From: a bacterium
Lineage (GTDB): Bacteria; SZUA-79; Acidulodesulfobacterales; Acidulodesulfobacteraceae
Assembly: GCA_027319095.1 (NCBI GenBank)
Contig: DAHVNW010000011.1
Span: 1 to 50,170 of the forward strand
Reading direction: 5' to 3'
DNA length: 50,170 nucleotides
The notes below the pieces were generated by a model, which searched no databases, had not been told where the DNA came from, and saw only the letters and a program-made list of their open reading frames with translations. Positions 38,583-45,992 of this stretch are shown piece after piece. The translations under genes and the position numbers were made by a program. Every line of letters starts with the position of its first letter. The stretch's first letter is position 1.

Positions 38583-39212
38583 TTAGCCTAAATTAACGGC
38601 TTCCGTATTTTCTAAAGATAAGATATAGTTTTTCAACGAACCGAAACAATCCCTCAGCGTTTCCTTGCTCTGATTTGATTTTGACATCATTATGCAACCC
38701 TCGAAAGATGCTATAATAAAGCTGCTTATAGAAGATATGCCGGAATTCGCGCGTAGTATTCCGGCATCTTTGGCCTTTTGAAGACCTGTTTCTAAAAAGG
38801 AGCGCCAGATAGCTATCACGCCGGCGGTATGTTCGGCGAGTATGGCGTCTTTGGCTGATATTTCGAGGATTAAATTTCCGAGAGGACATCCAGTTTTGGA
38901 CAATCTCTCGGCATTGCTGTTGTAAATGCCGTCTATAACAAGACACAGGGCTTTAAGGGGGTCGTCGGACTTGTAAAAGTTTCCCCAGACGGATTGGTAA
39001 TGAGGTTTTATAACCTCATCTATAACGGCGACGGCAATATCTTTTTTCGATTTAAAATAGTAGTAAATACAGCCTTTGGTCGCACCTATTTTAGAAAGTA
39101 TATCCTGCATCCCGGTATCTTCGTACCCTTTTTCCAGCATAAGTTCGAAGGCTGCATTTACTATTTCTTTCCTTCTCGCATCCTTTTTGCCTTTATCTTT
39201 TTTTTCCCTCAT
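38583..39212 (-). CDS. TetR family regulator, thiol-rich (first of two paralogues)
   Basis: About 209 residues from the ATG at 39212; an upstream in-frame start (39248) would add 12 and lies inside the dsrE ribosome region, so it is less likely. The N-terminal helix-turn-helix reads EIVNAAFELMLEKGYEDTG and IGATKGCIYYYFKSKKDIA. The ligand domain has TGCPLGNLILEISAKD and SFEGCIMMSKS. It shares five aligned cysteines with the paralogue at 44074 (in GCIYY, LCLVIDG, GCPLGN, EGCIM, CF). It starts 39 bp after dsrE, downstream of the operator-bearing promoter at 39.7 kb, so it is probably autoregulated. Confidence 0.9.
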   Translation of the reverse strand: MREKKDKGKKDARRKEIVNAAFELMLEKGYEDTGMQDILSKIGATKGCIYYYFKSKKDIAVAVIDEVIKPHYQSVWGNFYKSDDPLKALCLVIDGIYNSNAERLSKTGCPLGNLILEISAKDAILAEHTAGVIAIWRSFLETGLQKAKDAGILRANSGISSISSFIIASFEGCIMMSKSNQSKETLRDCFGSLKNYILSLENTEAVNLG

Positions 39213-39251: not shown

Positions 39252-39602
39252 TTAAAATGTCATAGGCTGGTAGCCTTCCGCCATTAATTCGGCAATTCTC
39301 TGGCCAGCATGAACAAGTTCCGCTTTTTTTTCCTGAAGAACTTTTGATACGCCAAAACCTTCGGCAACGAAAACGCACGCTTGCGGAATTATATTGTTTT
39401 TCAGTACCTCGCCGTAAGCTTCGAGGATTTCCTTATCGCCGGTTTTTGCTATAAAATCTTCGCTTGGACCGAAAAGCATGAGTTTAACATCCTCGAAAGC
39501 CCCGCTGCTCTTCGTTCTCCATGCAACGTTAAGACCGAGTTTTACCTTAATCGGGCTGTCCGCGCCGGATAAAATAATAATTAATGCTTTTGCTTTTGCC
39601 AT
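39252..39602 (-). CDS. DsrE family sulfur-carrier-like protein
   Basis: A 116-residue DsrE/DsrF-fold protein: AKALIIILSGADSPIKVKLGL at the start, VKLMLFGPSEDFIAK, and a single conserved cysteine in IIPQACVFVAEGFGV (about residue 79), the position of the persulfide-carrying cysteine in this family. Known relatives move sulfur between proteins. The gene lies first in an operon with the TetR gene and has a decayed paralogue at 44943-45282. Partner specificity cannot be read from sequence. Confidence 0.85.
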   Translation of the reverse strand: MAKAKALIIILSGADSPIKVKLGLNVAWRTKSSGAFEDVKLMLFGPSEDFIAKTGDKEILEAYGEVLKNNIIPQACVFVAEGFGVSKVLQEKKAELVHAGQRIAELMAEGYQPMTF

Positions 39603-39652: not shown

Positions 39653-39697
39653 ATACCAACTGGTTTGTATTTTAATATTTTTAAAAAAATTTGTCAA
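39653..39697 (-). promoter_or_regulatory. TetR-type operator overlapping the dsrE-tetR promoter
   Basis: On the minus strand, TTGACA (39692-39697), a 17-bp spacer and TAAAAT (39669-39674) form a strong promoter. The 18-bp near-palindrome ATACCAACTGGTTTGTAT (39653-39670, plus-strand reading) overlaps the -10 by two bases and would be blocked when bound. The same operator, with one base changed, has the same position at 45948-45965. Confidence 0.75.
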
Positions 39698-39713
39698 ATG
39701 AATTATTTAGATA

Positions 39714-39722
39714 TGATATAAT
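39714..39722 (+). promoter_or_regulatory. Extended -10 promoter for the radical SAM gene
   Basis: TGATATAAT (TGnTATAAT) 27 bp before the TTG start at 39750. It is back to back with the operator-controlled dsrE promoter, whose operator ends 44 bp upstream, so the same regulator could affect both. Confidence 0.45.
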
Positions 39723-39749
39723 TTATCTTATTTTTGTTATACGGCATGT

Positions 39750-42023
39750 TTGATTATATATGAATTTATACGCCATAATAATACATCGGAAATTTTACGG
39801 AATTTAATTTTGGATAGCAATAAAAAGAAAAAACTCGCCTTTTACGTCGATTACGAACGTTTTAACTCTAAAGAAGCGCCGCCCATACTATTTTTTATTT
39901 CATTTTTAAGAAATGCCGGTTATGAAGTCGATTTTTTTATCAGGGAAAAAGACCTTTTAGATGCGCTTAACCGCCGCAATAATATCATCCGTAAACGTGC
40001 GGAAACGAAACGGGAGCTTGCCGCTTCTTCCGAAGCTATTTATGCGCAAGCTTATTACGATGCATGCCTTCTTTCGCTAATGAGCGCAGACAGTTTAAGA
40101 AAAATACTTCAAACCGCAATCAAAGTAAAAGAAATAAGTCCCTATACGGCAAATATACTCGGAGGAACGGGTGTTTATGGCTACTTTGGCGATTTAATAA
40201 TAGCCGAGGGCATCGATGTAACTATAGAAGGCGATGCGGAAAAAACGCTTCCTGCCGTTTTGGACAACATTGTAACTTTTAACCGATATTGCGCCGAAAA
40301 TTATAATAAGAATTATAAGGATAGCGGGCTTAACGCCGAAAAATTAAACGATAAAATTTTTAAACGATATCCGAAAAAACTTAAATCGGGGATAACAAAA
40401 CAGGAAGCGTATTTTTGCGGACAGGAACACATGGAATTGCTATTCAAATCAAAAGGATGGCATCTTTCTCCTATAATAACCGTACCCGATATGATTTATT
40501 TTCAAAGAAAAATTTCGGGTTATACCGTAAACTGCCCCATTTCTAACGTTGCCATTAAATTAAATAACGGTGTTATAAGACTTTTTGAAAAAGTCGATGC
40601 AAAACATAATAATTTTAATAAATTTTACGGGCCGTATAAAGAAATAATTTTGTCGGAAAAAGAATTCGAAAACTTTATTCTTCCATTTCCTACCGAAGAA
40701 GAAATAAACGCCGGATACACGGGTTACCCGTGGGATATATATGAGCAATACGGTTTTGAATCGATAGGAGTTTACGCTCAGAGAGGGTGCAATTGGGGGA
40801 AATGTTCATACTGCTCTATTGTTAACTATAAATATAGAAAATTGGATATCGGCTTTCTTATAAAAATATTAACAGAGGCGAAAAAACGCCGCGTTTCCGG
40901 GTTTAGTTTCGACGACGACCTGTTCGTGCAAAACAAACTATGGACTAACGATTTTCTCGACAAAATCATTGCAGGAAAATTCAATAATATATTCGATTTT
41001 ACCGCCATGGTTAAGGTTGAACATATCGACGATATTAATCTTTTAAATAAATTAAAACAGGCTAATTTTACCAAAATTCAAATAGGGGTGGAAAGTTTTT
41101 TGCCTAAAAAAATTTCGTATTTTTCTAAAACAAAAGAAGAAAAAGAGCTTATATACGTAAATAAGGCTAAAAACATAATAAATTATTGCGCCTCAATCGG
41201 AATTATTCCTTCCTCGTTTATTATTTTAACATCTCCCAACAAAGATTTTAATTTATCGGATATAGTCCAAGAAGTAGGCGAAATAATCGACATAATAATC
41301 GAGGTTTATAACAGGTATAAATCGCTCCCGATTTTCATGTTTAACGACTTTATTAATGCCTATCCAGGCGCACCTTTATTAGCCGGACAGTCGTACTCCA
41401 AGTTTATGGTGCCGCTTTGCGGGGAGGCGGCGGAAACGAATGAAGACGGCGGCGATTATACCGCTACGATGAATTTAAGAAGCGTATGCGTTCCTTACCT
41501 GTATAAGTTCGAGAATATGAAGATTGCGCACTTTATCGGCATACTTTTAAAAAATTCCGCAAATGGGAGCAGAGAATTCGATGCAGGTTCGGAAGGCAAT
41601 AAAAATAATGCGAAAAATATCGATACGAAAAAGTCCAATATCGCAAAAACGGAGGAAGAAAGAATGTTTATACATATAAAAAATATACTTAATTCGCTGA
41701 ATTATGCGTTCGACCTTTACGGAACGCCTGCATTTTTGCTGTATGATATAGTTGACCGGCTTGATTTGATTTATAATGAAAGCCCCGGCGTTTTGCAGAA
41801 AATTCTTGCAAATTGCTTTAACGTAAGCGATATTAATAAATTTAAAAATTATATTGCTTCCAATAAAATAGACGCAAATGCGGCGCTGGATATTTTTAGA
41901 GGCATAATAAGCGGTTACGACGAAATATGCAAATTTCAACAGGAGGAAAAAGACAAAGGAAAAGCTATGGCCGATATTTTATTAAAAAGAATTGAAGGGT
42001 TTTATAAAAATTATAACTTTTAA
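39750..42023 (+). CDS. Radical SAM protein with B12-binding-like N-terminal domain
   Basis: A 757-residue protein. The first 190 residues resemble a cobalamin-binding-type Rossmann domain (FFISFLRNAGYEVDFF ... ILGGTGVYGYFGDLIIAEGIDVTIEGDAEKTL) but lack a visible DxHxxG cobalamin motif. The radical SAM core starts near residue 330 with RGCNWGKCSYCSIVNY: the cysteines are spaced CX4CX2C, not the usual CX3CX2C. GFSFDDDLFV and IQIGVESFLPK are typical core strands. A C-terminal helical region of about 200 residues follows a low-complexity Asn/Lys/Gly linker near residue 610. Substrate unknown. The start is TTG at 39750; upstream ATGs are out of frame. Confidence 0.75.
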   Translation: MIIYEFIRHNNTSEILRNLILDSNKKKKLAFYVDYERFNSKEAPPILFFISFLRNAGYEVDFFIREKDLLDALNRRNNIIRKRAETKRELAASSEAIYAQAYYDACLLSLMSADSLRKILQTAIKVKEISPYTANILGGTGVYGYFGDLIIAEGIDVTIEGDAEKTLPAVLDNIVTFNRYCAENYNKNYKDSGLNAEKLNDKIFKRYPKKLKSGITKQEAYFCGQEHMELLFKSKGWHLSPIITVPDMIYFQRKISGYTVNCPISNVAIKLNNGVIRLFEKVDAKHNNFNKFYGPYKEIILSEKEFENFILPFPTEEEINAGYTGYPWDIYEQYGFESIGVYAQRGCNWGKCSYCSIVNYKYRKLDIGFLIKILTEAKKRRVSGFSFDDDLFVQNKLWTNDFLDKIIAGKFNNIFDFTAMVKVEHIDDINLLNKLKQANFTKIQIGVESFLPKKISYFSKTKEEKELIYVNKAKNIINYCASIGIIPSSFIILTSPNKDFNLSDIVQEVGEIIDIIIEVYNRYKSLPIFMFNDFINAYPGAPLLAGQSYSKFMVPLCGEAAETNEDGGDYTATMNLRSVCVPYLYKFENMKIAHFIGILLKNSANGSREFDAGSEGNKNNAKNIDTKKSNIAKTEEERMFIHIKNILNSLNYAFDLYGTPAFLLYDIVDRLDLIYNESPGVLQKILANCFNVSDINKFKNYIASNKIDANAALDIFRGIISGYDEICKFQQEEKDKGKAMADILLKRIEGFYKNYNF

Positions 42024-42028
42024 TCTTT

Positions 42029-42319
42029 TTAATCTTTTAAATCGGTTTTAATGCCGTTTCTTCTTATTCGTTCAATTGCTTCCATAAATTTCCTGGCCAA
42101 ATTCACCGCACTACCCCCTGTATTTCTTGATATTTTCATTTAACTGAGAGTCAATAGTGTAGTTTGTGGTTTTAGACATAACGGACCATCTTGTAAATCC
42201 CAGCTAATTTCTAATTCTTTGCCCTCATGTACCTCATGTAATACTCCTTCTGCGTAAACATAGGTTGCAGGCGTTCAACCCATTCCAACGGTTCTTATAA
42301 ATATAATATCGGTTTTCAT
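42029..42319 (-). pseudogene. 96-codon frame interrupted by one TGA and one TAA (decayed gene or selenoprotein candidate)
   Basis: An ATG at 42319 with a good ribosome site (AGGGGAA, 7 bp upstream) opens a frame that runs 97 codons to a stop at 42029. It is broken in frame by TGA at codon 15 and TAA at codon 60. The pieces read MKTDIIFIRTVGMG, then TPATYVYAEGVLHEVHEGKE ... TLLTLS, then MKISRNTGGSAVNLARKFME ... KTDLKD. The absence of frameshifts and the protein-like composition between the stops argue for a recently inactivated gene. I do not recognise the family. A bacterial SECIS stem after the TGA is not convincing. Confidence 0.5.
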
Positions 42320-42385
42320 GCTTTCCCCTGTTTATTTTATCGCAAAATTAAATTAATAAATAACGTTATACCGTGAAGCTATCAA

Positions 42386-43018
42386 TTATAAACCCACGGC
42401 CTCCGCCACGGCCTGCGAATTTTCACAGATAAAAAACATGTTTTCCATACTTTTAAGCGACCTGTCATAGCTTTCCTTGCTCATAGACGAGACGCAATCG
42501 GAAACAATAACTGGATAAAAACCCCTGTTTGCAGCATCCCTTGCGGAAGATTCTATACCGATGTCGGTAGCTATTCCAGTAAATATTAACGTCGTTACCC
42601 CCTTGTTTCTTAATAAGTTCTCGAAATATGTTCCGATAAACAGGCTTGCGGTATATTTTTCTATAACTATATCGCCTTCGGATGGTTTTACATCCTCCAA
42701 TATTTCCATTGCTCCGGAAGAAAAAATAGACTTGAACATATCCTCCGGATTACTTACATTAAACATCTTCATCCGCCAGTAATAAGACCATGAAGATGCA
42801 AAGCCTTTAGGGAGGCCGACGGCAATTTTACTGTATATGAAGGGAATTTTACCCCTTAATTTACCGGTGAAATTTTTAAGGTTTTTAATGAACTCGTCTT
42901 TATTGAAAATACGCTCGGCCGTCGCATTCTGAACATCCCATACTACAAGGCAGCTGCGGGACGGGTCTATTATTTCCCGCAGGGTTTCATATACCGGTAT
43001 CCCGTCGATATTTTTCAT
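42386..43018 (-). CDS. Isochorismatase-fold hydrolase lacking the nucleophilic cysteine
   Basis: A 210-residue protein of the isochorismatase superfamily. The catalytic aspartate is in LVVWDVQNA (about residue 28) and the lysine in IVIEKYTASLF. The third position, normally cysteine in cysteine hydrolases such as nicotinamidase (TDVCVESTA-like), reads IATDIGIESSARDAA, with glycine. True isochorismatases such as EntB also have glycine there, so this is closer to the isochorismatase type than to amidases. The substrate is unknown; there are no siderophore genes nearby. Confidence 0.82.
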   Translation of the reverse strand: MKNIDGIPVYETLREIIDPSRSCLVVWDVQNATAERIFNKDEFIKNLKNFTGKLRGKIPFIYSKIAVGLPKGFASSWSYYWRMKMFNVSNPEDMFKSIFSSGAMEILEDVKPSEGDIVIEKYTASLFIGTYFENLLRNKGVTTLIFTGIATDIGIESSARDAANRGFYPVIVSDCVSSMSKESYDRSLKSMENMFFICENSQAVAEAVGL

Positions 43019-43148
43019 AATCTTACCTCCGTTTCAGATTTTCAAAATATTTTTCTATTATTTTTTTAATCCCTTTTAGCTTATTTAAAGCAGCGCTTTT
43101 TAATGCCCGCAAAATATATGTCGATTATGAATTAATTAAATTAACCGA

Positions 43149-43814
43149 TTAATCGTAAAATTTAACGATTTCGTCAAAATCGTTCCTGAATGTTTTTATG
43201 CCGTTGATTTTACTGTCTGTTTTATAGTAACCGATAGAAATCCCCAGAATGAATTTTTTATTTTTTGGAAGGCCGAACGCCTGCCTTAAAACATCGGGAT
43301 ATACGGTAAGATATGCCTGAGGACAGGCTCCGAGACCATTGTTGTTGTGGGCAGCCAATAAAATATTTTGAATCAACATGCCGCAATCCAGGACAGACCA
43401 CAAACCCAAGCTTTCTTCCATATATATAAATATCGCGGTTTGGGAATTAAAAAAGTTATAGTTCGATAATGTAAATTCCTTTCTTTTTTCTGCATCTTCC
43501 CTTCCTATGCCGATGTATTCGAACCTGTGCTTTCCGGTTTCAAACATGTTGGCTTCCTGTTTTTCCGGCCATACATTTGGAAACGGATAATCGGGATTTA
43601 TAGCAGTACCGTTCTTTGCAAGCCCATACAGGCTGTTTTTTATAAATTCGCTTGTCTTGCCGGTGGAAACGGCTATTTCCCATGGCTGCGAGTTTGCCCA
43701 TGAAGGCGCCCTTAAAGATGCCGAAAGTATTTTTTCGATTATTTCCTTTGGGACGGGCTTGTCTAAAAAATCCCTTTTTGAAGTTCTGGTTGTTAATGCT
43801 TCAAATAATTCCAT
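43149..43814 (-). CDS. Nitroreductase family flavoprotein
   Basis: About 221 residues from the ATG at 43814, which has a strong GGGGG ribosome site; an upstream in-frame start would add 35 residues with no such site. The start MELFEALTTRTSKRDFLDKP and LRAPSWANSQPWEIAVSTG is the FMN-binding nitroreductase pattern, with NILLAAHNNNGLGACPQAYL later. Such enzymes reduce nitro compounds, quinones or other electrophiles with NAD(P)H. The promoter is controlled by a 20-bp palindrome (43936-43955) and the neighbouring TetR, like nemRA-type electrophile responses. The natural substrate is unknown. Confidence 0.88.
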   Translation of the reverse strand: MELFEALTTRTSKRDFLDKPVPKEIIEKILSASLRAPSWANSQPWEIAVSTGKTSEFIKNSLYGLAKNGTAINPDYPFPNVWPEKQEANMFETGKHRFEYIGIGREDAEKRKEFTLSNYNFFNSQTAIFIYMEESLGLWSVLDCGMLIQNILLAAHNNNGLGACPQAYLTVYPDVLRQAFGLPKNKKFILGISIGYYKTDSKINGIKTFRNDFDEIVKFYD

Positions 43815-43935
43815 TTTAAAACCCCCTTTTAAAATTATACTATTAAAAATTATATTGTATAAATATTTTTCCGCTTTGGTTAACTTAATAAAATAAAGAA
43901 AGTTCCCGAAATTCCACAAGCCATTTTTATAAAAT

Positions 43936-44000
43936 AAGACCGATTAATCGGTCTTTATATTTTTATTATTCATTATATATTCGGGCTTTCCATGTGTCAA
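43936..44000 (-). promoter_or_regulatory. Palindromic operator and promoter for the nitroreductase
   Basis: On the minus strand, TTGACA (43995-44000), a 17-bp spacer and TATAAT (43972-43977) make a near-consensus promoter. The perfect 20-bp palindrome AAGACCGATTAATCGGTCTT lies at 43936-43955, about 10-30 bp downstream of the expected start of transcription. Its GACCG...CGGTC arms are typical of TetR operators. The second TetR gene (44074) is divergent. Confidence 0.75.
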
Positions 44001-44044
44001 GCATTTTCTATTTTATTGTTTTATTTTATTATTAAGCCTGTGTA

Positions 44045-44053
44045 TGATATAAT
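44045..44053 (+). promoter_or_regulatory. Extended -10 promoter for the second TetR gene
   Basis: TGATATAAT (TGnTATAAT) at 44045-44053, 21 bp before the ATG at 44074, with an AGGAG ribosome site between (44061-44065). The leader is very short. Confidence 0.45.
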
Positions 44054-44073
44054 GATTTTTAGGAGATTAATTA

Positions 44074-44673
44074 ATGGTAAAAATTTTAAAAAAGAAAACG
44101 AAAAGAGGCGACATACTCGAAAAAGCCGCCTCTCTGATTCTCGAGAAGGGATACGAAGACTTCCGCCTGCAGGACCTCGAAGAAAAAACAGGCTGCGCAA
44201 GGGGTTGTATATATTACCATTTCGATTCTAAAAAAGAAATCGCGGAAACGGTTATAGACGAGATTATAAAGATAAAGTTCGCAGATTCGTGGAAAGATGT
44301 ATATAAAGGGGATAATCCGGTCGAAAGCATTTGCGAAATGCTTGACGGTTTATTGTTAAAAGGGGGGAGCGCCCTTGCAAAAAATGGATGTCCCTTAGGA
44401 AATATCGCAATGGAGTTGTCGCATAAAGATAAATTTTTTGCAAAAAAGATACAAAGCATAGTAGCCCTGCAAATATCTTACATCGAAAAGGCTATAAACG
44501 TCGCAAAGGATAAAGGCATCGTCAGAAAAGACATAGATTCCGACGCAACTGCTAAATTTATCGTTTCTTCCATCGAGGGTTGCATCATGACAGCCAAGAC
44601 ATTTCAGGATAAAGGAGTCCTCGAAAACTGCTTTAAATTAATCAAGGATTATCTGAGGGGCCTTTATGCGTAA
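44074..44673 (+). CDS. TetR family regulator, thiol-rich (second paralogue)
   Basis: A 199-residue repressor paralogous to the one at 38583. The helix-turn-helix reads ASLILEKGYEDFRLQDLEEK and CARGCIYYHFDSKKEIAETV. The ligand domain has AKNGCPLGNIAMELSHKD and SSIEGCIMTAKTF. Its cysteines align with the first TetR, with one extra in TGCARGC. It is divergent from the nitroreductase, with the palindrome at 43936-43955 in between, the usual layout for a TetR and its target. An electrophile or oxidant sensor of the NemR kind is a reasonable inference. Confidence 0.9.
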   Translation: MVKILKKKTKRGDILEKAASLILEKGYEDFRLQDLEEKTGCARGCIYYHFDSKKEIAETVIDEIIKIKFADSWKDVYKGDNPVESICEMLDGLLLKGGSALAKNGCPLGNIAMELSHKDKFFAKKIQSIVALQISYIEKAINVAKDKGIVRKDIDSDATAKFIVSSIEGCIMTAKTFQDKGVLENCFKLIKDYLRGLYA

Positions 44674-44942
44674 AATTCATTCAAAAGCACATGGTTATAT
44701 TGCATATATCAATATTTTATTGCCTTTCATGAGGTTCACGTCTTTATTATAATATTTCCTATTGTGCGGGATTAAAACCTCTTTCCATAAAATATTGATT
44801 CTTTATTAATCTACTAAAATCTCTTTAATTAAGGCTTTAACGGCTAATGCGGTATAGTTATAATTCTGCAATTTTTAAGTATTTTATTGCATTATCGTTA
44901 TATTATATATTATGCAATACGCTTTAAAAATAATAATTACTT
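44674..44942. other. Non-coding gap
   Basis: These 269 bp hold no supportable gene on either strand. The sequence is AT-rich, with no clear promoter, hairpin or repeat. It separates the end of the second TetR gene from the end of the decayed dsrE copy (convergent). Confidence 0.5.
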
Positions 44943-45282
44943 TTAAAGCGTCATCGGCTGATAGCCTTCCGCCATCAATTCGGCAATTCTCGGTCCTGAG
45001 CGGACAAGTTCGACTTTTTTCCTGAAGCATGGGTGTAATGTAAAAGCTTTGGCTATTCGAACGCATGTGTGCGTCATTACATTGTTTTTCAGGACATCGT
45101 CGTAGGCATCGAGAATCTCTTTGTCCCATGTTTTGCAATAAAATCTTCTGCCGGTTCTAAAAACATAACCTTAGCATATTCGACGCGTTTTTTGTTCTCC
45201 ATGCTAAATTAAGCCATATTTGTAATTTAGCTGGATTGTTTTTGCCTGAGATAATAATTGTTAGCGCCTTTGCTTTTGCCAT
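44943..45282 (-). pseudogene. Decayed second copy of the DsrE family gene
   Basis: The start MAKAKALTIIISGKNNPAKL and the end RIAELMAEGYQPMTL match the intact gene at 39252-39602. Between them the frame shifts at least twice: VEYAKVMFLEPAEDFIAK is in one frame, and DKEILDAYDDVLKNNVMTHT in another. The conserved cysteine region survives only as THTCVRIAKAF. The ATG at 45282 and stop at 44943 are in place. It is the last member of the run DUF2892-tusA-psi-dsrE, so the duplication probably kept the operon intact before decay. Confidence 0.85.
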
Positions 45283-45335
45283 AAAGGCCTATATAAAATT
45301 AATTAACGTACCGTAAAAAGATAGGTTGCCTGTTT

Positions 45336-45569
45336 TTATGCTTTTTTAATATAAAATCTAATTTTCTTGCCCTCTTCTTTTGTTTCGACAAGTTCGTTGC
45401 CTGTCATTCTGCACCACGCAGGTATATCTTGCGAAGAAGCGGGACTAGTAGAAATAATTTCGAATATTTCGCCCCGGTTAAGTTCCCCAAGCTCTTTTTT
45501 AATTTTGGGATATAGGGCGGCGCAGGTAAGACAGCCTGTGTCGACAGCTTTCTTGACATCTAAAGACAC
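45336..45569 (-). CDS. TusA family sulfur carrier-like protein
   Basis: A 77-residue protein matching TusA/SirA/YedF in length and pattern. It starts from GTG (45569) after GGGAGG. The sequence is VDTGCLTCAALYPKIKKEL with a cysteine pair CxxC where TusA has CPxP, then GEIFEIISTSPASSQDIPAWCRMTGN and a last strand KIRFYIKKA. The first cysteine is the expected persulfide carrier; the loss of the CPxP proline is unusual. It lies between DUF2892 and the decayed dsrE, under the operator at 45948. Confidence 0.8.
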   Translation of the reverse strand: MSLDVKKAVDTGCLTCAALYPKIKKELGELNRGEIFEIISTSPASSQDIPAWCRMTGNELVETKEEGKKIRFYIKKA

Positions 45570-45659
45570 TATTGCCTCCCAATGATTTATCGTTTATAAA
45601 TATTGCACCGGTAAAAATTCAAAAAATATCATAATCCCAGTTAAACAAAATTAAAAAAC

Positions 45660-45878
45660 TTATTTATTGTCATAGTGTGTAGGACATGTCGAAATTCCAA
45701 GCAGGGCATAAAAAGGACAAAGCCCCGCAATTCCGGTAATTAAAGCCGCAATGCCCGCTATTAACAGTATCACCCCCAACGCCTCGCTTGAACCGAGCAA
45801 GATATACCCGATTATTAAAAGAATTATTCCCAGAATAACACGTATAACCCTATCATTTTTTCCTTGATTTACTTTCAT
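45660..45878 (-). CDS. DUF2892 (YgaP-like) small membrane protein
   Basis: About 72 residues from the ATG at 45878 with ribosome site AGGGGTG; an upstream GTG (45887) lies too close to that site. It has the DUF2892 start KVNQGKNDRVIRVILGIILL, two predicted membrane helices and a C-terminal CPFYALLGISTCP with two cysteines. In other bacteria this domain is often fused to or encoded beside rhodanese-type sulfurtransferases (for example YgaP). It is first in the run with tusA and psi-dsrE, directly downstream of the operator. Confidence 0.85.
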   Translation of the reverse strand: MKVNQGKNDRVIRVILGIILLIIGYILLGSSEALGVILLIAGIAALITGIAGLCPFYALLGISTCPTHYDNK

Positions 45879-45947
45879 AATAATCACCCCTCTTCCAAGT
45901 TTAAGGTTTATTTAAGATTCTTGCCCTGATGATGCTGCGATATAAAA

Positions 45948-45992
45948 ATACCGACTGGTTTGTATCGTATCACTGCCAAAAATTTTTGTCAA
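45948..45992 (-). promoter_or_regulatory. TetR-type operator overlapping the DUF2892-tusA promoter
   Basis: On the minus strand, TTGACA (45987-45992), a 17-bp spacer and TACGAT (45964-45969). The operator ATACCGACTGGTTTGTAT (45948-45965) overlaps the -10 by two bases. It differs at only one of 18 positions from the operator at 39653-39670, and the promoter/operator register is identical. One regulator therefore very likely controls both units. Confidence 0.78.

Follow-up and report, generated by a model that had tools for sequence, protein, structure and literature searches.

A putative TetR autorepressor of sulfur-carrier genes in Candidatus Acidulodesulfobacterales and its possible response to reactive sulfur

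We describe a predicted regulatory circuit for sulfur-carrier genes in a 50,170-nucleotide stretch of bacterial DNA (the window; GenBank assembly GCA_027319095.1, contig DAHVNW010000011.1, positions 1 to 50,170), whose source genome is a member of the Candidatus (Ca.) Acidulodesulfobacterales group. Our analysis suggests that TetR1, a TetR-type protein encoded at 38583-39212, is an autorepressor released by reactive sulfur via its cysteines, a reading to which we give a probability of about 0.6. The evidence was drawn from sequence, namely the sites, promoter geometry, regulon content, co-occurrence and conserved cysteines; from these we infer binding, repression, a thiol switch and an inducer. 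Ca. Acidulodesulfobacterales are uncultured acid-mine bacteria, probably facultatively anaerobic, with genes for dissimilatory sulfate reduction and dsrEFH (PMC6776010). A relative carrying a matching dsrE-tetR unit is on record as Ca. Acididesulfobacter diazotrophicus, of the same proposed order.

In the proposed mechanism TetR1 would bind ATACnRACnnGTYnGTAT over the -10 box and, once bound, would block RNA polymerase at the dsrE-tetR and DUF2892-tusA-(broken dsrE) promoters. In related genomes it would act at matching sites that also cover EamA/DsrE-like/TauE operons, a di-haem peroxidase and a nitroreductase. A thiol-reactive sulfur species (persulfide, polysulfide or a related oxidised sulfur compound) would most likely release the protein from DNA by modifying Cys109, Cys173 and Cys189, which lie in the C-terminal sensor domain, and sulfur-carrier and sulfur-export functions would be made only on a rise of reactive sulfur. 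The operators, promoters and genes of the two units in the window are as follows.

39653-39670, minus strand: operator 1, ATACAAACCAGTTGGTAT (minus-strand reading), overlapping the -10 box of the dsrE-tetR promoter
39669-39674, minus strand: -10 box TAAAAT of the dsrE-tetR promoter
39692-39697, minus strand: -35 box TTGACA of the dsrE-tetR promoter
39252-39602, minus strand: dsrE-family sulfur carrier, 116 residues, single conserved Cys76
38583-39212, minus strand: tetR1, repressor with a TetR_C_13 domain, 209 residues, with Cys109, Cys173, Cys189 and Lys178 invariant in the clade
45948-45965, minus strand: operator 2, ATACAAACCAGTCGGTAT (minus-strand reading), at the DUF2892-tusA promoter
45964-45969, minus strand: -10 box TACGAT of the DUF2892-tusA promoter
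45987-45992, minus strand: -35 box TTGACA of the DUF2892-tusA promoter
45660-45878, minus strand: DUF2892 / YgaP-like transmembrane protein, 72 residues (PF11127)
45336-45569, minus strand: tusA-family sulfur carrier, 77 residues (PF01206)
44949-45282, minus strand: decayed dsrE copy, in pieces at 45181-45282 and 44949-45161 that are 59% and 56% identical to the intact dsrE

Both promoters comprise TTGACA, a spacer of 17 base pairs (bp) and a -10 box, with the operator beginning at base 5 of the -10 box, a 2-bp overlap. A first-pass annotation of this DNA had described two 18-bp sites in this arrangement, and all of its elements were found where it had placed them; it had also named the genes correctly (a TetR with PF00440 and PF16925, TusA, DUF2892, a DsrE recognizable by family, and a broken downstream dsrE). 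Operator symmetry is moderate, with 7/9 and 6/9 base pairs symmetric. One hundred dinucleotide shuffles of the window yielded no match to the 18-mers with up to three mismatches allowed.

The sites were then surveyed in 30 genomes of the lineage, representing 6 genera; order-level and phylum-level searches gave the same set. An earlier scan allowing three mismatches had returned exact matches upstream of dsrE in dsrE-tetR loci. The pattern ATACNRACYGGTYNGTAT, whose fixed positions do not count as evidence of conservation, matched 42 times (39 distinct places in the examined loci) in 23/30 genomes, and its reversed control gave no match in the 30. The operator started at the constant point of the -10 box in 33/39 sites, and a TTGAC(A/T) box lay 16-18 bp upstream in 31/39. 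In promoter orientation, operator position 5 was A in 35/39 and position 14 was G in 33/39. The exact matches of the earlier scan, the promoter geometry and these two positions lie outside what the pattern fixes and do count as such evidence. The composite TTGACA-17/18-TAnnATACAAACCRGTYGGTAT matched 22 times (control, 0). The first-pass annotation had named random occurrence, with no link to promoters, as the outcome that would speak against its proposal; the motif proved to be rare and promoter-linked.

The first gene behind these 39 sites was most often dsrE (21), followed by EamA (6), nitroreductase (4), di-haem cytochrome c peroxidase (3), DUF2892 (2), tusA (1) and others (2). The last two sites, G003:C51 and G022:C55, lie near contig ends; in G003:C51, read in its usual orientation, the site leads into a dsrE that the contig end truncates. 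At tetR1 loci with both genes called, dsrE and tetR both lie downstream of the site and share a strand. Behind EamA there often come genes for a DsrE-like protein and a TauE/SafE-family transporter, and the downstream TauE, EamA and DsrE-like products fit sulfur handling. Five target types recur in three genera: dsrE-tetR, DUF2892-tusA, [dsrE-]EamA-DsrE-like-TauE, di-haem peroxidase and nitroreductase. This spread behind one site, together with the absence of matches in the reversed controls, makes it scarcely credible that the repeated site arose by chance or is merely inherited promoter sequence with no regulator, even though all the genomes are related, part of the similarity reflects common descent and one orphan site lies between convergent genes.

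That orphan is the third of the strict pattern's three occurrences in the source genome (C135:20350-20367; L003 1501-1518), and it reads antisense into a Fur-type gene. It was first taken as a chance match; the T-tract and the -10/operator junction that it shares with the other sites argue otherwise. It has no TTGACA, and its upstream stretch scores equally (18) against a peroxidase promoter and against EamA-type promoters. We consider it probably a promoter relic, judging by these remnants.

The first-pass annotation had named the TetR at 38583 as regulator of both units, and two lines of evidence back that assignment: co-occurrence, and the different conserved operator of a second TetR gene in the window. 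The site is present in 19/19 genomes with a dsrE-linked tetR1. Of the eleven genomes lacking a dsrE-linked tetR1, seven are also without the site and four carry it, one of the four because its contig stops within dsrE (Fisher p = 1.6e-4, with no correction for descent). The second TetR gene and its palindrome are located between the two sites.

44074-44673, plus strand: tetR2, a tetR1 paralogue (~42% identical) that we do not propose as regulator of the two sites
43936-43955, no strand assigned: perfect 20-bp palindrome AAGACCGATTAATCGGTCTT, between a nitroreductase gene (minus strand) and tetR2 (plus strand)

Given its position, its similarity to TetR1 and the cysteines that the two share, TetR2, or another TetR, might be proposed to bind the two sites. 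We regard this as very unlikely: the operators differ (ATACCRACTGGTTTGTAT set against AAGACCGATTAATCGGTCTT), the tetR2 palindrome is identical beside the tetR2 orthologue of G025, and tetR2 is missing from most site-bearing genomes. By this comparison, tetR2 and AAGACCGATTAATCGGTCTT are predicted to form a separate, second TetR circuit within the window. A third TetR branch (L035, L036, L039, L040 and L041) has ATACTAACCGTTTAGTAT-like operators and shares the three cysteines of TetR1; at G005:C11, its locus examined in detail, such an operator precedes a nitroreductase. This branch is a natural set for the study of how operator specificity diverges. As the paralogues have diverged in operator, TetR1 is favored as the binder of the two window sites and is the likely repressor at both, with strong confidence in the repressor and its regulon taken together. 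Elsewhere in the source genome (C55:1818; L011 1094-1111), the near-palindrome ATACCGAATGTTCGGTAT lies just past the 3' end of another, distant TetR-like gene.

TetR1 consists of TetR_N (PF00440, 52.2 bits, cut-off 24) and TetR_C_13 (PF16925, 49.7 bits, cut-off 27) domains. Its fold model (predicted local distance difference test, pLDDT, 87) matched TetR structures in the PDB, with NemR among the structural neighbors, and its own promoter is overlapped by the palindromic predicted operator. Cys109, Cys173, Cys189 and Lys178 are conserved in 31/31 family members of the lineage. Cys173 and Cys189 were missing in every outside relative examined: the closest plasmid relatives have Cys109 and Lys178 and neither of these two, and 3qbm, 3eup and 3dpj, relatives of solved structure, have the GCP motif and no Cys173. 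TetR1 thus has at least two conserved cysteines in its sensor region, as is looked for in persulfide-responsive repressors. A relative (~32% identical) on Staphylococcus warneri plasmid pPI-1 (L197/L201, 11045-14581) is followed by trxB, an AhpD-like gene, trxA and a second thioredoxin gene, a cluster which resembles a thiol-stress cluster and is possibly comparable to allicin-tolerance clusters. Another relative, in Priestia, has an OsmC gene a few genes away. These neighbors suggest that thiol stress is the wider theme of the family. With its three invariant cysteines, TetR1 probably works by a thiol switch.

Most targets have a role in carrying or moving sulfur, and for this reason we take a reactive sulfur species to be the likeliest signal. 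Persulfide is a plausible inducer; sulfane sulfur as the natural signal of TetR1 we put forward tentatively. Similarly tentative is a stronger version, in which TetR1 would sense sulfane sulfur directly through Cys109, Cys173 and Cys189 and, as local master regulator, direct sulfur-carrier traffic in Acidulodesulfobacterales, a TetR-fold counterpart of CstR/SqrR.

The repressor and its regulon would be unchanged if the signal were instead an oxidant or electrophile, as for Escherichia coli NemR, with the sulfur carriers serving a general thiol-stress response. TetR1 and NemR have the TetR_C_13 domain in common, and the nitroreductase and peroxidase targets suit such a signal. Lys178 aligned with NemR Lys175 in every alignment made, and oxidation of NemR has been proposed to join Cys106 and Lys175 (PMC8748444). 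Pfam coordinates and alignment A5 match Cys109 to NemR Cys106, but in alignment A2, hhalign and a 34-row alignment the two lie four residues apart. E. coli nemR has TAGACCGACTGGTCTA, of which the 10-mer ACCGACTGGT is common to the nemR site and operator 2; we have not leaned on this match because the dyad centers differ. Most of the targets, moreover, are sulfur carriers or stand in operons with sulfur transporters, and we judge this explanation, the main rival, to be the less likely one. A classical ligand-binding TetR, with a small organic inducer and structural cysteines, appears improbable. The closest curated NCBIfam model is AcuR (NF051457; by its name an acrylate-utilization regulator), but TetR1 falls far below its cut-off (77 vs 247 bits); three clade-invariant cysteines, two of them missing in all outgroups examined, would be unusual for such a protein, and the nearest plasmid relative adjoins trxB, the AhpD-like gene and trxA.

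Several observations weigh against TetR1 as a sulfur-released repressor. Its three cysteines are equally conserved in paralogues unlinked to dsrE, and are therefore not specific to the sulfur units. Three genomes, G016, G017 and G022, gave no tetR1 homologue at E <= 1e-10 except for a partial match in G016, yet the site occurs in each, either ahead of EamA or where a contig ends; as G017 is 97% complete, either some sites are orphans or a different protein recognizes them. The peroxidase and nitroreductase targets would be equally at home in a general response to oxidants or electrophiles and in one to sulfur stress, and both repressor binding and effects on expression are predictions. Of the circuit proposed by the first-pass annotation, then, the TetR-type operator common to two sulfur-carrier units and to the regulator's own gene is well backed by genome comparison; the proposed sulfide or persulfide signal is more tentative, and oxidant or electrophile sensing of the NemR type is a nearly equal fit.

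Judged by profile comparison, assignment to DsrE is firm for the family as a whole but weak for its window member taken singly. The window DsrE alone gave no Pfam match; in the family alignment 13/18 members match PF02635 (best E 4e-8), Cys76 is invariant, and the family profile matches 2fb6, a solved protein of unknown function (E 1.3e-5). A structure model of DsrE was discarded (pLDDT 38) and the family was assigned by profile instead. For dsrE-tetR pairs outside the phylum, one genome-contig scan (short exact peptides) and plasmids were covered; a dsrE relative on a Thermococcus plasmid had no TetR among the annotated neighbors shown. In G026 (L153, L073) the operator, DUF2892, tusA, dsrE and tetR follow one another as a single intact operon. 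Judging from gene order, the simplest reading of the window is a duplicated operon, of which one copy would have retained dsrE and tetR and the other DUF2892 and tusA with a decaying dsrE. Divergent from the dsrE-tetR promoter lies a gene for a large radical SAM protein (39750-42023) with a weak B12-binding match.

If this reading of TetR1 is correct, it would be a TetR-fold candidate for reactive-sulfur sensing beside the CsoR, ArsR and MarR types. The conserved regulon links little-studied genes (DUF2892, EamA, DsrE-like, TauE) to one signal, and offers a concrete, cheaply testable system for sulfur trafficking in a lineage that is uncultured and widespread in acid mine drainage.

Among known systems, the sulfane-sulfur-responsive regulators named in two published accounts (PMC11211675, PMC12423496) belong to the CsoR, ArsR and MarR types, with FisR, OxyR and a small number of further proteins besides. 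Like CstR (CsoR type) and SqrR/BigR/YgaV, SoxR and sHdrR (ArsR type), TetR1 would repress sulfur-carrier or sulfur-oxidation genes; sHdrR and SoxR control dsrE3C units (PMC12423496). Those proteins use cysteine pairs bridged by sulfane sulfur, and their folds are unrelated to TetR. The MarR-family proteins MgrA, MexR, MarR and OhrR are oxidant sensors which also answer sulfane sulfur through cysteines; unlike TetR1 they have the MarR fold, and their targets are mostly drug efflux and peroxide defence (PMC11211675). NemR resembles TetR1 in its TetR_C_13 domain, redox cysteine region, conserved lysine and shared 10-bp operator stretch, and in being autoregulated, as TetR1 is predicted to be, in an operon that for NemR includes a reductase gene. 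It differs in sequence (~20% identity), in having neither Cys173 nor Cys189, and in the center of its operator dyad; NemR controls nemA/gloA and senses hypohalous acids and electrophiles, whereas the TetR1 targets (dsrE, tusA, DUF2892, EamA, TauE, peroxidase and nitroreductase) are not of the nemA/gloA type. The first-pass annotation had expected a persulfide-sensing TetR to be new, and our literature search, which covered few subscription papers, found none. However, AltR of Pantoea ananatis, a NemR-related TetR repressor of an allicin-tolerance cluster, is released by thiosulfinates through Cys100 (PMC13178969), so that sensing of reactive sulfur by a TetR is not wholly new. Compared by description, AltR is, as TetR1 is predicted to be, a TetR-type autorepressor with an inverted-repeat operator partly over the -10 box and several target promoters, and its cysteine-dependent release by a reactive sulfur compound is what we propose for TetR1. 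AltR differs in its known inducer, its operator (CAATCTAC-N6-GTAGATTG) and its allicin-tolerance targets. What would be new, if true, is a TetR that reads persulfide and governs DsrE, TusA and TauE genes.

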